DNA from: Rhodospirillales bacterium
GTDB taxonomy: Bacteria; Pseudomonadota; Alphaproteobacteria; Rhodospirillales; Magnetospirillaceae
Assembly: GCA_019455065.1 (NCBI GenBank)
Contig: JACFNC010000004.1
Coordinates: 248,001-312,000, forward strand
Length of the DNA: 64,000 nt
Direction of reading: 5' to 3'
This document shows, piece after piece, positions 23,773 through 30,355 of this stretch. Made by a program: the position numbers and the translations under genes. Position 1 is the first letter of the stretch. Each line of letters starts with the position of its first letter. The notes under the pieces were generated by a model, which searched no databases, was not told where the DNA came from, and worked only from the letters and a program-made list of their open reading frames with translations.

Positions 23773-24912
23773 CTATAGCAAGCCGCGCGCGGACAGCCAG
23801 TACAAGCGGTTGTAGGCCAGCTTGAACCAGTGGATCATTTGTGACGGAGGGCCGGGATTGGGCGGCGTGGTGTAGTTGAACCACACATAGGTGCCGCTGT
23901 TCATGCCCGTTTCGACGAAGCAGAACACCTTGCCGTCGTAATCTCGCGCCCAGCGGTCTTCCTGAACCAGCGACACCAGGTTGTCGATCACCGTATCCGC
24001 TTCGAAGTGGGCCGTCGAACCCGCCTTCGAAATCGGGATGTTCGTCGTGTCGCCGACCACGAACACGTTGGTCGAGCCCTCACGATGCAGGGTCTTTGGA
24101 TTGGTCGGCACCCAACCCCCTTTGCCGAGGTTGGAATCCCCGATCACCTCGGCGCCCTGATGGGGCGGGATGGTTATGAGCATGTCGAAGGGCAGGCTGA
24201 CACCCTCCTCGGAGGAGATCGTCCTGGCGGCCGGGTCGACTTCCTTGCAGTTGAAAAACGTTTCGTATTTCACGCCGATCTTGTCGAACTCGGGCTTTGC
24301 CCACAACGCCACGGGCTCCAGAGCGTGCAGGCGCCCGATCGGGTAGGTGTAGGTGATCTCCGACTTTTCCCAAAGACCGCGGCCCTTGAGGTAATCGTAA
24401 AGCATGAAGGTGATCTCGAGCGGCGCCACGGGGCATTTGTGCGGGGCGTTGACGTTTACGACGATCTTGCCTCCCTCGAAGGCGGACAGGGCGTCGCGCA
24501 TCTTGCGCGCCCCATCGAGGTCGTAGAACCAGTGCGCCGCCTCGGCCATGCCGGGGATGGTCTGCGGCATGATGCGCGAGCCGGTGGCGATGACCAGATA
24601 GTCGTAGCGATGCATCTTGCCCGACTGGGTCGTCACCTGGCCGGCATCGACGTCGATGTTCCGCGCCGGGTCGATGAAGAAGTTGACGCGGCGGTCGAGA
24701 ACCTTTCGCTGGTCGCGGAACAGCTCCGCCTCGCGAATGCGCCCGAAGGGCACGTAGAGGAGCCCCGGCTGGTACAGATGCTGGTCGGACGTTCCAAGCA
24801 GGGTGATGCCGACCTTGCCATCCCGCAGTTCCTTCGAGAGCTGACGGCACAGGCCGTTGGCGACGATGGTGCCGGAAAGCCCTCCGCCGACGATCAATAT
24901 GTTCTTGGCCAT
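23773..24912 (-). CDS. sqr: Sulfide:quinone oxidoreductase family flavoprotein
   Basis: FAD/NAD(P)-binding protein of 379 residues with the N-terminal dinucleotide motif IVGGGLSGTIVANGL, the ATGSRIMP segment and VFVVGDTTNIP near the flavin. Cysteines are 22, 160, 222 and 331. Cys160 (HKCPVAPLE) matches a conserved SQR cysteine, but the one usually near residue 128 is absent, so it may belong to a divergent SQR type. The C-terminal amphipathic stretch (HWFKLAYNRLYWL) suits peripheral membrane binding. It follows dsrE and tusA in one operon, implying direct transfer of sulfur product to carriers. Confidence 0.82.
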   Translation of the reverse strand: MAKNILIVGGGLSGTIVANGLCRQLSKELRDGKVGITLLGTSDQHLYQPGLLYVPFGRIREAELFRDQRKVLDRRVNFFIDPARNIDVDAGQVTTQSGKMHRYDYLVIATGSRIMPQTIPGMAEAAHWFYDLDGARKMRDALSAFEGGKIVVNVNAPHKCPVAPLEITFMLYDYLKGRGLWEKSEITYTYPIGRLHALEPVALWAKPEFDKIGVKYETFFNCKEVDPAARTISSEEGVSLPFDMLITIPPHQGAEVIGDSNLGKGGWVPTNPKTLHREGSTNVFVVGDTTNIPISKAGSTAHFEADTVIDNLVSLVQEDRWARDYDGKVFCFVETGMNSGTYVWFNYTTPPNPGPPSQMIHWFKLAYNRLYWLSARGLL

Positions 24913-25910: not shown

Positions 25911-26699
25911 TTAGTCCACCATGGCCCGGTAGGCGTGCCATGAGGCGTGGGCGACCAGCGGGAAAGCGACCACCAGCCCCAGGAAGAACGTGGCCAGGCC
26001 GACGCCGGTGATCACGGCAATCATCGCCGCCCATCCCACCATTACCTGCCAATTCGCTCGCACTGCCTCCAGGCTGGTGAGGGCCGCCGTGCCGGCGGAC
26101 ACCTCGCGGTCGAGCAGCATGGGCAAGGCCACGACGCTCAGCGCGAACACCGCAGCCGCGATGGCGCCGCCCATGGCTGTGCCGATGACGAGGAACGGAA
26201 TGGCCGCCGGCGCCGTCAGCACGTCGAGAACGAAGGTGTCGAAGGACAGCGGCGTGCCTTGGAAGAACAGGGCGAACAGCAGCAGCGAAAGCTCGAACCA
26301 TGCGAAGAAGGCGATCATCAATCCGACGCCGAAGAACGCGATCTGGCTCGGATTTCGCCGCCAGGCGGCCAGGGCGTCGGCCAGTGTCACCGGTTCGCCC
26401 CGCTCCAATCGGCGGCTCACTTCGTACAATCCCACCGCAACCAGCGGTCCGAGCAGGACGAAGCCGGCACCGAGGGGAAGGATCAGGCTTCCCAGCCCGA
26501 GCCACATCAGCCCCAGCGCGAGCACGTAGCCGGCCGCGACCACGGCCGCGCCATAGGCGAAGGAAACGCCGGGGGCCCGCAGGATGTCGGCCCATCCCGC
26601 GGCCAGCCATGCTGCGGACTGGTCGACGGTCACCTTGCGGATGACCGCGGCATCGTCGCCGTGGCGGTTGAGAGCCTCGCCTGGTGCCGATGCGCGCAT
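25911..26699 (-). CDS. DUF2189 integral membrane protein
   Basis: Membrane protein of 262 residues with about six hydrophobic helices and the opening VIRKVTVDQSAAWLAAGWAD typical of DUF2189. The middle segment YEVSRRLERGEPVTLADALA and the later WQVMVGWAAMIAVITGVG are also family-like. The Met at 26699 is chosen because agggagg lies 5 bases upstream. DUF2189 genes often lie near cytochrome oxidase genes, as here, where the oxidase-like operon begins divergently at 26917. Function unknown. Confidence 0.8.
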   Translation of the reverse strand: MRASAPGEALNRHGDDAAVIRKVTVDQSAAWLAAGWADILRAPGVSFAYGAAVVAAGYVLALGLMWLGLGSLILPLGAGFVLLGPLVAVGLYEVSRRLERGEPVTLADALAAWRRNPSQIAFFGVGLMIAFFAWFELSLLLFALFFQGTPLSFDTFVLDVLTAPAAIPFLVIGTAMGGAIAAAVFALSVVALPMLLDREVSAGTAALTSLEAVRANWQVMVGWAAMIAVITGVGLATFFLGLVVAFPLVAHASWHAYRAMVD

Positions 26700-26916: not shown

Positions 26917-27030
26917 ATGAACCGGGGGCCCGGCTTCCGCCTGAACAAGTGGGTTATGCTCGCCGTTATGGTGGCCATCGCCATCGCCCTCTACGTCGCA
27001 AGTTTTCTGCGCGTCGCCAATCCGGCCTGA
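26917..27030 (+). CDS. 37-residue single-helix membrane protein
   Basis: A short frame, MNRGPGFRLNKWVMLAVMVA, with one hydrophobic helix (about residues 12-30) and a basic N-terminus. gaggtgag lies 8 bases upstream of the ATG. It ends 22 bases before the DUF420 gene and shares its strand, so it probably belongs to the heme-copper operon as a small subunit or assembly peptide, like the short peptides of other oxidases. No family is recognised. Confidence 0.5.
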   Translation: MNRGPGFRLNKWVMLAVMVAIAIALYVASFLRVANPA

Positions 27031-27052
27031 CGATGGTTGCTGGAACGGGGTA

Positions 27053-27484
27053 ATGACTTTCGCCGACGTCCTGCCGCATGTGACCGCGACGCTCAACGCC
27101 GTCACCATCCTGTTCCTGCTCGCCGGGTTGTATTTCATCCGGCGACGAAACCGGGATGCCCATCGGGCCGCCATGATCGGGGCGGTTTCGCTGTCGGTGG
27201 CCTTTCTTGCCGCCTATCTGCTGTACCACTTCACGTCGCCGATCTTCCGCTTTGCGGGCGAGGGCGCGGTCCGGCCGATCTATTACGCCCTGTTGATTTC
27301 GCATGTGGTGCTTGCCGCCGCCGTGGCGCCGATGGTCGCGCTGACCTTTCTGCGAGGGTTGGGCGGGCGCTTTACGGTGCATCGGGCGGTGGCGCGCTGG
27401 ACGCTGCCGGTGTGGCTGTACGTCTCGGCCAGCGGCCTGATCGTCTATGTGATGCTCTACCACGTCTATCGACCGGTGGCCTGA
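27053..27484 (+). CDS. DUF420 membrane protein
   Basis: A protein of 143 residues with four hydrophobic helices. Conserved DUF420 features are LPHVTATLNAVTILFLLAGLY, HRAAMIGAVSLS, YLLYHFTSP and WTLPVWLYVSASGLIVYVM, with several histidines in or near helices. DUF420 proteins accompany heme-copper oxidases and some act in heme or oxidase maturation. The stop is one base before the subunit I ATG, so translation is probably coupled. Confidence 0.85.
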   Translation: MTFADVLPHVTATLNAVTILFLLAGLYFIRRRNRDAHRAAMIGAVSLSVAFLAAYLLYHFTSPIFRFAGEGAVRPIYYALLISHVVLAAAVAPMVALTFLRGLGGRFTVHRAVARWTLPVWLYVSASGLIVYVMLYHVYRPVA

Positions 27485-27485
27485 G

Positions 27486-28901
27486 ATGCTGCACAGCCGC
27501 GATCCCCTGGCCGGCGCGCCGGCTTCGGCTTGGTTGACCGCCTACGATGCGTCGCTGACGGCGCCGCTGCGCCGCGAGTTGCGCGGATGGTCCCTGCTCG
27601 CCGTCGGCTCGCTGGCGGTGGCCGGGGTGCTGGCGCTGCTGCTGGTCATGTCCCGCACGCCCAAGCTTCAGGATCTGCTGCCCTGGCCGTGGGAATCCTT
27701 TTTCTACACGGCCCTCGTGACCCACGTGGTGTTCTCGTTCGTGGTCTGGTACGTGGCGTTCCTGGGCGCCGCGGCGGTGCTGGCGACGGCGCGCTCGGCG
27801 GCGGGCAGGCCGCGGCTGGCGGCGCTGGGACCGGCCGGGTTGTGGCTGGGGGTGGCCGGCGCGGCGCTGCTCATCGGCGTCACCCTGGCCGACCAGGGCG
27901 AGGCGTCGCTGAACAATTACGTCCCGGTGCTCAGCCATCCGCTCTACTACGCCGGGCTCGCGATCCTGGGCGTCGGCGTCGCCTTGCCGGTGGTCAGGCT
28001 GCTGGCCAATCCGGGTCGAATCGGAGATACGGTCGAGTTCGGGGTGGCGGCCTGCGGCGTGGCGTATCTGGTGGCGCTTCTCTGCTTCGTCATCGCCTGG
28101 ATGTTGCTGCCGCCCGGCACCGACATCGCCGCCTTCAACGAGCGGCTGTTCTGGGGCGGCGGCCATGTTCTTCAGTTCGTCAACACCGGCCTGATGATGA
28201 TGGCCTGGCAGTCGCTGGCGGTGATGGCCTTCGGCGAGGCGCCGGTGGATCGCCGCCTGTACTGGCTGCTGATGGCCGGGCTGGTCGTCTTCGTGCTGCC
28301 GGGTCCGATCTTCTATTTCACCTTCGACATTCTCGGCCTGGCGCATCGCTACGCCTTCACCGACCTGCTGTGGTACGGGCTGTCACTGCCGCCGGCGGTG
28401 ATGATCCTGGGCGTCTTCGTGCTGCTCTGGCGGTGGCGGGGCACATGGCCGTGGCGGTCGCCGGCCTTCCTTGGCCTGATCCTGTCGGTCCTGGTGTTCG
28501 CGGTGGGCGGGGTGTTCGGCTTTTTCCTTGGCGTCAGCGACACCCGCACGCCGTCGCACTACCACGCCGTCATCGGCGGGGTGAACCTGGCCTTCATGGG
28601 GCTGATGGTGGCGTTGATGCTGCCGGTCCTGGGGCGCGCCGTGAAGACCGGACGTTGGGTGTGGGCCCAGTTTTGTCTGTATGGGTTCGGCCAGCTCCTG
28701 TGGTCGGTGGGAATGTTCCTGGCGGGGGCGGCCGGCGTGCCGCGCAAGACCGCGGGCGTCGAGCAGGGGCTGGACAGCGTCGGCAAGCTGGTGTCGATGG
28801 CGATGACCGGCACCGGCGGACTGATCGCCGTCCTGGGCGGCATTCTGTTCATCTGGTTCGCGTTGCGCCGCCTGCTGGCGCGGGAGGCGATCGATGGCTG
28901 A
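27486..28901 (+). CDS. Divergent heme-copper oxidase/NO-reductase-like subunit I
   Basis: Membrane protein of 471 residues with about 12 helices and the heme-copper framework. His80 (THVVFSFVVW) is the likely low-spin heme ligand, His227 (WGGGHVLQF) one metal ligand, and His358/His360 (PSHYHAVIG) the heme ligands of helix X. The usual His-His pair of helix VII is His287-Arg288 (GLAHRYAF). The residue four after His227 is Phe231, not the cross-linked Tyr of oxygen reductases. Loss of these residues is a mark of NO-reductase-type members. The next gene encodes a CuA subunit. Function as a NO reductase is inference. Confidence 0.8.
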   Translation: MLHSRDPLAGAPASAWLTAYDASLTAPLRRELRGWSLLAVGSLAVAGVLALLLVMSRTPKLQDLLPWPWESFFYTALVTHVVFSFVVWYVAFLGAAAVLATARSAAGRPRLAALGPAGLWLGVAGAALLIGVTLADQGEASLNNYVPVLSHPLYYAGLAILGVGVALPVVRLLANPGRIGDTVEFGVAACGVAYLVALLCFVIAWMLLPPGTDIAAFNERLFWGGGHVLQFVNTGLMMMAWQSLAVMAFGEAPVDRRLYWLLMAGLVVFVLPGPIFYFTFDILGLAHRYAFTDLLWYGLSLPPAVMILGVFVLLWRWRGTWPWRSPAFLGLILSVLVFAVGGVFGFFLGVSDTRTPSHYHAVIGGVNLAFMGLMVALMLPVLGRAVKTGRWVWAQFCLYGFGQLLWSVGMFLAGAAGVPRKTAGVEQGLDSVGKLVSMAMTGTGGLIAVLGGILFIWFALRRLLAREAIDG

Positions 28902-29433
28902 CGCGATGGCCGCCATCCGCGGCCGCCTCCCCCTGCTGCTGACGGCGCTTGCGCTGGTCGCATTGATGGTCGGCATGCCGACCTGGCGCTACGACGACCG
29001 GCCGGAGTTTCCGCGTTACGCCATCTCCACCGACGCCTTCGAGGCCAAGGTCGACGCCATGGTCCGCGACCATTCCACCGGGGCGGAGGAGGACGGGATG
29101 CCGGTCGTCCACCCGCCGCCCGGAGACGTCTACTTGCTGGCCCGCCGCTGGCAGTTCTACCCGGTCCTGGAACTAGAGGCGGGGCGCAGCTATCGCCTGC
29201 ATGTGGCGAGCGTGGACGTGCTGCACGGGTTCCACGTCGGCGATGTCGACGTGTTGCTGGTTCCCGGCGCCGCGACCGTCGTCCCGTTCAATCCCGGCGC
29301 CTCGGACCGGCCGGTCATACAGTGCAGCGAATTCTGCGGGCTGCGGCATAATCGGATGACCGCGTGGGTGCGTGTGGTGCCGGCCACTGCGGCGCCTGAC
29401 CAACATCAAGGCGCCGCGGCGGGGGCTCGCTGA
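28894..29433 (+). CDS. CuA-containing subunit II of the heme-copper enzyme
   Basis: Subunit II-like protein of 179 residues with one N-terminal membrane helix (LPLLLTALALVALMVGMP) and a cupredoxin domain. The CuA ligands are visible: His in DVLHGFHVG, then CSEFCGLRHNRM, giving C-x3-C-x3-H-x2-M. It overlaps the end of subunit I by 8 bases. A CuA site implies electrons come from cytochrome c or a cupredoxin rather than directly from quinol. Length is short compared with most aa3 oxidase subunits II, similar to ba3-type. Confidence 0.85.
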   Translation: MADAMAAIRGRLPLLLTALALVALMVGMPTWRYDDRPEFPRYAISTDAFEAKVDAMVRDHSTGAEEDGMPVVHPPPGDVYLLARRWQFYPVLELEAGRSYRLHVASVDVLHGFHVGDVDVLLVPGAATVVPFNPGASDRPVIQCSEFCGLRHNRMTAWVRVVPATAAPDQHQGAAAGAR

Positions 29434-29500
29434 TTATTTGGTTTTCCCGCGCACTGCAATCGGTCAAAGTGGTGGCGGCCGCGCTGGGCAGGAGGGGGTG

Positions 29501-30355
29501 ATGACTTTTCGCGACTACGTGCAGCTCATGAAGCTGCGCATCGGCGCGATGATCGCGCTGACGGCCGTCATGGGCTATGCCGCGGTCGCCGACGAGATTC
29601 GCCTGCCGCAGATCGGGTTGCTGGTCGTCGCCATGCTGCTCGGCTCGGCCAGCTCGGCCGTGTTCAATCACTTCTACGACCGCGACATCGACCGCCTGAT
29701 GGCGCGCACGGCGAGCCGGCCGCTGGCCAGCGGCGCCATGTCGCATCCCTCGGCGGTGCTGTCCTTCGCCGCCGTCCTGCTGGTGCTCGGGCTGGGCATC
29801 GCCGTGGTGTCGTTCAACATGGTGGTGGCGCTGCACCTGTTCCTGGGTGCCTTCATCTACGGCGTCGTCTACACGGTTTGGCTGAAGCGCCGGACGTCGC
29901 TCAACATCGTCATCGGCGGCGCCGCCGGCAGCTTCGCGGTGCTCGCCGGAGCCGCCGCCGTCGACCCTGGCATCTGGCTGCTGCCGATGCTGCTCGCCGT
30001 CACCCTGTTCCTGTGGACGCCCAGCCATTTCTGGGCGCTGGCCATCCTGCTGCGCGAGGACTACCGGCAGGCCGGGGTGCCCATGCTGCCGGTGTTGGTG
30101 GGGGATGAGAAGACCGCCAAGGCGATCTTCGTGAACAGCGTTCTGCTGGTGGGCTCGTCCCTGCTGCCGTGGGCGCTGGGCGAACTCGGCGCCATCTACG
30201 GCGTCGGGGCGGCGCTGCTGGGCGCGGGCCTGCTGTGGGCAAACTGGAAGCTGTTGCAGGATCCCAGCCGCCTGTGGGCGCGCCGCAACTTCCTGGCCTC
30301 CATGCCCTATCTGATGGGTCTATTCATCGCCATCCTGGCCGACGTGCATCTCTGA
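29501..30355 (+). CDS. ctaB: Protoheme IX farnesyltransferase
   Basis: UbiA-family membrane prenyltransferase of 284 residues that makes heme O from heme B. Diagnostic motifs are NHFYDRDIDRLMARTASRPL (first Asp-rich loop) and WTPSHFWALAILLREDYRQAGVPM. The ATG has aggaggggg upstream. It is the last gene of the heme-copper operon, which suggests that the enzyme uses heme O or heme A. No ctaA is seen in the window. Confidence 0.93.
   Translation: MTFRDYVQLMKLRIGAMIALTAVMGYAAVADEIRLPQIGLLVVAMLLGSASSAVFNHFYDRDIDRLMARTASRPLASGAMSHPSAVLSFAAVLLVLGLGIAVVSFNMVVALHLFLGAFIYGVVYTVWLKRRTSLNIVIGGAAGSFAVLAGAAAVDPGIWLLPMLLAVTLFLWTPSHFWALAILLREDYRQAGVPMLPVLVGDEKTAKAIFVNSVLLVGSSLLPWALGELGAIYGVGAALLGAGLLWANWKLLQDPSRLWARRNFLASMPYLMGLFIAILADVHL

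Follow-up and report, generated by a model that had tools for sequence, protein, structure and literature searches.

A heme-copper oxidase paralogue without a normal CuB site, encoded in a Rhodospirillales operon with CuA and heme O synthase genes

Subunit I of the heme-copper oxidases (HCO) is defined by its heme-CuB centre, yet a widespread and conserved family of such subunits lacks that centre. One member is encoded in a 64,000-nucleotide stretch of a Rhodospirillales bacterium (assembly GCA_019455065.1, contig JACFNC010000004.1, positions 248,001 to 312,000; hereafter the window), where five same-strand open reading frames (ORFs) at positions 26917-30355 encode a 37-residue peptide, a DUF420 protein, HCO subunit I, a CuA subunit II and a heme O synthase (CtaB). 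The locus raises a sharp and testable question: what is the role of an HCO that has CuA and both heme sites but no CuB? A preliminary description, which also noted the five-gene packing now borne out by the ORFs and by the profile matches of Table 1, had proposed a CuA-linked nitric oxide (NO) reductase or a new variant, and had placed a His-Arg pair where CuB oxidases have His-His.

Here, I report that both helix-VII CuB histidines, that is two of the three CuB histidines, are missing across the whole family, as read from its sequences. Three alignments agree on the register: MAFFT with the genome's own aa3, cbb3, eNOR-like and sNOR-like proteins, a 59-row family profile run by hmmsearch over the Protein Data Bank (PDB; Thermus ba3), and hhalign against a 14-row eNOR-like profile (probability 99.8, 25% identity) all place the His-His pair on Phe276-Tyr277, His227 on the helix-VI CuB histidine and Phe231, four residues further, on the position of the cross-linked tyrosine. 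The pair formerly assigned to CuB, His287-Arg288, lies about ten residues past Phe276-Tyr277 and is excluded both by the three methods and by its own variability: position 287 is Gln in 27 of 81 rows, nearly as often as it is His, and because positions 287 and 288 vary (Table 1) they form no ligand pair. The active site is thus altered as had been suspected, not by a His-to-Arg exchange but by the absence of both helix-VII ligands, and while Arg288 falls away from the CuB pair, Phe231 does stand at the tyrosine position.

In the 81-row alignment (the window protein and an 80-locus set, the N-terminal part being absent in two rows) just four histidine columns are invariant where covered, 80, 227, 358 and 360, the very four named before; Gln230, Asp352 and Arg354 are invariant in all 81 rows. 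Position 231 is Phe in 54 rows, Tyr in 10, Leu in 9, Val in 4 and Ile in 4, and position 277 is Tyr in 70, the remainder having Thr, Ser, Ala, Phe, Leu or Glu; helix VII holds no further invariant ligand-type residue in these rows. A helix-VII His-His pair occurs in none of the 81 alphaproteobacterial rows, none of 18 rows from other classes and none of 17 further rows, so its loss is not a matter of chance. Nor was the loss selected for, since the two scan patterns behind the 80-locus set, which comprises the best 80 of at least 592 relatives (at least 593 stretches) from the alignment query, left out helix VII.

With one of three metal histidines left and Phe in place of the tyrosine, or of the acid or amide of NO reductases (NORs), the site cannot, by its residues, be a normal O2 or NO centre. 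Of the three CuB histidines and the cross-linked tyrosine of heme-copper O2 reductases, His227 alone remains here, and a relocated active-site tyrosine may be conceived of, for example Tyr277. The FeB of cNOR and qNOR is bound by three His and a Glu; one His is found, and the aligned place has no Glu. The polar or acidic residue at the tyrosine position and the metal-site histidines that mark the CuA-type NORs (eNOR, sNOR, gNOR, bNOR) are likewise missing. Table A4 of PMC8756737 gives E, Q, N or D at the tyrosine position of NORs, and with Phe, Tyr, Leu, Val or Ile there and two metal ligands gone the proposal of a CuA-linked NO reductase fails as a residue pattern, if not for every possible chemistry. 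Unable to build a normal CuB site, the complex is therefore unlikely to serve as a terminal reductase of O2 or NO.

Subunit I is a true HCO subunit I in fold and is predicted to bind heme. The AF2 model (pLDDT 93.0, pTM 0.92) and its fold matches show the fold of 12 transmembrane (TM) helices, and the low-spin His pair and the high-spin His of the superfamily are found in the invariant His80, His358 and His360. The best Foldseek match is Thermus ba3, and a PDB profile search at 1e-3 returns ba3 chains only; a second structure comparison gives Z scores of 27.6-29.4 to A-, B- and C-type oxidases and one cNOR among the 50 matches listed, too close to rank. NCBIfam models give no match to subunit I at 1e-3.

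Table 1. Genes of the operon and key residues of subunits I and II (window positions)
Feature	Position	Strand	Evidence
37-residue single-TM peptide, first gene of the operon	26917..27030	+	small hydrophobic ORF
DUF420 (CtaM-like) membrane protein	27053..27484	+	PF04238 141.5 bits, gathering score 30.5
HCO subunit I without CuB, 471 residues	27486..28901	+	PF00115 (COX1) 67.2 bits
His80, low-spin heme ligand	27723..27725	+	invariant, 79/79 covering rows
His227 (sole CuB-type His left), Gln230, Phe231 (Tyr position)	28164..28178	+	His227 and Gln230 81/81
Phe276-Tyr277, site of the missing CuB His-His	28311..28316	+	three alignment methods
His287-Arg288, former CuB pair, no ligand pair	28344..28349	+	His 28/81, Arg 53/81
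His358 (high-spin) and His360 (low-spin) heme ligands	28557..28565	+	81/81 each
Arg420-Lys421, at the heme-propionate Arg pair position	28743..28748	+	80/81, one gap
CuA subunit II, 179 residues	28894..29433	+	COX2 19.8 bits (cut-off 22); TIGR02866 36.2 bits (cut-off 147.7)
CuA ligand loop; His111, both within subunit II	29323-29358; 29224-29226	+
Heme O synthase (CtaB)	29501..30355	+	TIGR01473 271.8 bits, above curated cut-off 210.3

The Arg420-Lys421 position presumably serves the heme propionates as in HCO structures. In subunit II the two Cys, two His, Met and Glu of a CuA site are all present: H111, C144, C148, H152 and M155 are found in 31 of 31 homologues and E146 in 29. A CuA subunit lies immediately 3' of the CuB-less gene in 30 of the 80 loci; these and the other neighbour counts over the 80-locus set are lower bounds, contig ends cutting some loci. 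An apparent mutual exclusion of CuA and aa3 (CuA adjacent in 5/38 aa3-linked against 25/42 other loci, Fisher p 2.2e-5) reflects clade membership (p = 1 in a phylogenetic sign test) and was discarded.

How far does the family reach? A single-sequence scan of genome contigs gave no relative; whole-genome searches and the alignment query did. Within the 80-locus set identity reaches 60-62%, Telmatospirillum sp. J64-1 being one such case, and most relatives there are Rhodospirillales. Within this order the CuB-less protein is present in 50 of 61 genomes (51 were matched, G051 by an eNOR-like protein alone), the match being a fragment in G006 and G048; 21 of 289 genomes in a class-wide sample and 61 of 398 in a phylum-wide sample were matched, the latter almost all from classes other than that of the window. 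All 35 rows beyond the 81 (18 and 17) keep His80, His227, His358 and His360, and 34 keep Gln230, L255 being the exception. Ten of the 18 (L172-L176, L181-L183, L186 and L187) retain one His at position 277, and judging by these rows it looks as if the two CuB ligands went successively.

The tree unites the CuB-less proteins in a single clade (support 100/100), whose neighbours are the eNOR-like rows (100/98) and from which the A, C and sNOR-like rows stand apart. The 'new variant' of the preliminary description is in this sense upheld relative to the four kinds of row tested (A, C, sNOR-like and eNOR-like); that subunit I might fall inside ordinary O2 reductases finds no support, the clade being separate from the A and C rows in a tree without true B oxidases, and the sister position to eNOR accordingly holds among the rows present. 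Two rows, L003 (C) and L005 (sNOR-like), sit on long branches, and L085 groups with the other-class rows. The candidates L220 and L221 were rejected as B-family O2 reductases for the trees, being by motif another odd HCO. That type, found in L220 (1087-2751, + strand), L221 and L287 (genomes G076, G140 and G044), has HN[MV]HY in helix VI with the Tyr kept at +4, YH for HH in helix VII and [YA]FH for HFH in helix X, so that the high-spin heme His looks lost: a mirror image of the CuB-less family. Two very divergent CuB-less-like proteins, L255 (G677) and L256 (G639), with GHIYV and GHIQQ in helix VI, join on long branches and may represent more subfamilies.

What, then, might such a protein do? 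The reading favoured here, tentatively and with something short of even confidence, is a CuB-less, heme-bearing HCO paralogue that would act in heme-copper enzyme biogenesis or electron transfer. CuA would take electrons from cytochrome c and hand them to the hemes, at least one of which is probably heme O or A; these electrons would not be spent on a gas, and the complex would handle heme or redox steps during the assembly of aa3 and eNOR-type enzymes. CtaB would make the heme, DUF420/CtaM would aid late assembly, and the CuB-less subunit I would hold or present heme, or keep it reduced. Bacillus subtilis needs CtaM at a late stage of oxidase assembly, and in Staphylococcus aureus aa3 activity depends on it (PMC9145763); the DUF420 product presumably acts as CtaM.

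The neighbourhood is that of heme O/A biosynthesis. DUF420 lies immediately 5' of the CuB-less gene in 59 of the 80 loci, CtaB within 4.5 kb in 58 (as the next gene downstream in 48) and CtaA between -7 and +4 kb in 21; an aa3 CoxA is found within 7 kb in 38, in 33 of which no CuA gene adjoins the CuB-less gene, and at 10 loci CtaA, CtaB, CoxA and eNOR are all unseen. The window operon carries the sole CtaB of its genome above the cut-off, two weaker matches (102.9 and 36.4 bits) being probably other UbiA-family enzymes, and the sole DUF420 found there. CtaA, searched for in this genome and eight others, is on a different contig, and the aa3 operon, which matches CoxB-CoxA-Cox11-CoxC, has no CtaB in it. 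Among the 61 related genomes CtaB exceeds the cut-off in 51 and is split over two contigs in a further one (G041); the CuB-less protein and CtaB occur together in 48, CtaB only in 4, the CuB-less protein only in 2 (the fragments) and neither in 7 (Fisher p 2.4e-5, a value that ignores kinship). In 33 of the 48 genomes with both, the CuB-less gene has a CtaB above the cut-off no more than 5 kb away.

The connection with NO is purely genomic. An eNOR-like subunit I lies within 7 kb at 10 of the 80 loci. Paramagnetospirillum-type loci run in the order eNOR II, eNOR I, (CtaB), SCO, a cytochrome b-ferredoxin protein, a small protein, CuB-less subunit I and CuA; a comparable order without a detected CuA gene is seen in the other-class loci L191, L192 and partly L206, and L190 has an eNOR-like operon downstream. 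The phylum sample has 27 genomes with a match classed as eNOR-like on score and length (motifs being checked in few), and 26 of these also have the CuB-less protein; the remaining one, G489, is 69% complete. By motif, the six COX1-family matches of the window genome are two aa3, one cbb3, one eNOR-like (Gln), one sNOR-like (Asn) and the CuB-less protein, with no cNOR or qNOR motif among them, and the eNOR-like operon (eNOR II, eNOR I, SCO, cytochrome b, small protein) stands on another contig, C30, without a CuB-less gene. Between SCO and the small protein, for which Pfam gives no match, such operons encode a fusion of cytochrome b, 4Fe-4S and FlpD-like domains by Pfam (L075, 3864-5402; L087, 3839-5413, as oriented; in the window genome L264, 9202-10725), which is doubled in some loci.

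Several observations weigh against a role in biogenesis. The complete CuA site, as read from its ligands, argues for real electron flow, which would be odd in a pure chaperone. The genes for CtaB, CtaA, DUF420 and SCO would equally accompany an ordinary heme O/A and CuA enzyme. Beyond the order, genomes with an eNOR-like protein are mostly without the CuB-less one (16 of the 21 matched genomes of the class-wide sample, matched by the eNOR-like protein alone on score and length). Four genomes (G005, G028, G039 and G056) have CtaB and no CuB-less protein, which is therefore not essential to heme-O-using cells. Lastly, G044 has the CuB-less protein and encodes CtaA, and an A-type motif is absent from its COX1-family matches, of which there are four (a cbb3, an eNOR-like, the CuB-less and one of the odd L287 type); the narrower idea of an assembly factor for aa3 only is weakened accordingly.

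The foremost rival, given that a CuA subunit speaks for genuine electron flow, is a heme-only oxidoreductase, in which electrons would pass from cytochrome c through CuA to the low-spin heme and end at an open high-spin heme that has His227 and Gln230 on its distal side, there to reduce NO, nitrite or another small molecule, or to scavenge a gas. The intact CuA, the invariance of His227 and Gln230, the operons in common with eNOR-like genes (the 10 loci, L190 to L192 and partly L206) and the near-constant company of the two proteins in the phylum sample all speak for it. It is nonetheless unlikely, if a serious possibility: the site is without a second metal, the tyrosine or a NOR-type acid or amide in its place, most aa3-linked loci lack an adjoining CuA gene, and I know of no membrane precedent for NO reduction at a single heme.

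That the hemes might instead sense O2, NO or the state of the cytochrome c pool and signal to a partner, perhaps by way of DUF420 or a TPR region, would suit a protein that lost its catalytic ligands, kept its hemes and in one branch carries a TPR fusion. Such a sensor is improbable, as no signalling domain or regulator is recognised in the operon or the neighbour clusters, and the genes that regularly accompany it serve heme and copper assembly. Less probable again is a CuA-type NO reductase with a non-heme metal site rebuilt from His227 and other side chains; the invariant His227 and Gln230 and the single His at position 277 of the ten other-class rows would favour it, but position 277 varies and helix VII offers no other invariant ligand-type residue. 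A functionless, decaying relic of an eNOR-like enzyme, for which the two lost ligands and the step-like single-His rows might speak, is very improbable given the strict invariance of the four His, Gln230, Asp352 and Arg354 across diverged genera, the retention of the operon and the absence of internal stops from the matches listed in the order and phylum genome searches; with its heme ligands and the pocket of His227 and Gln230 kept invariant, the family is not decaying freely.

The strongest hint of a common theme in heme or cytochrome maturation comes from outside the class of the window. Thirteen other-class rows form a branch within the CuB-less clade (SH-aLRT 96, quick tree, in which four more rows carry no label), and in 12 of them the open frame includes a C-terminal TPR region, while L240 has the TPR as a separate neighbouring ORF; Pfam confirms TPR in L242 and L247, both rows tested. 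In L247 the genes directly before it encode ResB (34.8 bits) and a protein of cytochrome c assembly (72.2 bits), with frames bearing several CxxCH motifs nearby, and by reading similar ResB/CcsA-type frames precede the gene in L240, L242 and L244, the context of the branch being drawn from these four rows. The position of TPR-bearing genes behind ResB-CcsA genes also counts in favour of the biogenesis reading. A bolder and more doubtful proposal is that HCO paralogues across the phylum shed CuB, kept both heme sites and became a membrane heme-handling machine, with three branches: one fed by CuA, one tied to CtaM and CtaB beside aa3, and one that carries TPR behind ResB-CcsA. Were this true, it would be, to my knowledge, the first HCO-derived maturation factor rather than reductase, and a natural system for the study of heme O/A and CuB insertion. 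Members of the family could readily be mistaken in annotation for cytochrome c oxidase subunit I, or counted among Tyr-less NO reductases, and the oxygen respiration or denitrification ascribed to their hosts would then be inflated.

As for the rest of the operon and its setting, a small hydrophobic ORF of comparable composition lies 5' of DUF420 in 31 of the 54 loci with a DUF420 gene and 900 bp or more of upstream sequence (a rough count by a loose pattern), and the 37-residue peptide has tblastn matches in 4 of 38 further loci. The sulfide-oxidation and nitrate setting described earlier holds for narG, dsrA, dsrB, soxB, soxY and soxZ, all of which exceed curated cut-offs in a profile search; the SQR-like flavoprotein (23773-24912, - strand), whose best NCBIfam match is the type III sulfide quinone reductase, selenoprotein subtype, stays below its own (327 bits, cut-off 525). 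These genes fit a sulfur-oxidising, nitrate-respiring relative of the Rhodospirillales, and the narG, dsr and sox neighbours alone do not reveal the role of the CuB-less complex. A gene for a DUF2189 membrane protein (25911-26699, - strand, 134.3 bits) is oriented away from the operon, and a DUF2189 cluster lies near the CuB-less gene in 9 of 39 loci, the window counted.

How does the family compare with known systems? No description of a CuB-less HCO family was found in the literature searched, outside of which most subscription papers fall. The proposed NORs gNOR, sNOR and nNOR are related to B-family enzymes (PMC11388526); the family may or may not coincide with nNOR, which is the main risk to its novelty. 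PMC8756737 tabulates gNOR with Asp and sNOR with Asn at the tyrosine position, where the CuB-less family mostly has Phe. With the assembly genes of S. aureus, in which ctaM adjoins ctaB, the operon shares the same gene pair, yet the accessible portion of PMC9145763 mentions no HCO paralogue between them. The B-family O2 reductase of Thermus, ba3, is the best structural match and the sole PDB family by profile, and both have a CuA subunit II; ba3, however, has three CuB His and the cross-linked Tyr, as opposed to one His and Phe in the window protein. Another known relative is eNOR, the B-type (ba3-a1) oxidase of magnetospirilli, described as a degenerate, Tyr-less B-family oxidase (PMC6431628), the ba3-a1 subtype having since been renamed eNOR (PMC8879329). 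Unlike the CuB-less family, the 14 eNOR-like rows invariantly keep His-His and Gln at the tyrosine position; like it, eNOR has a CuA subunit, is without the tyrosine, shares operons with it in the 10 loci above and is its closest clade among the rows of the tree.

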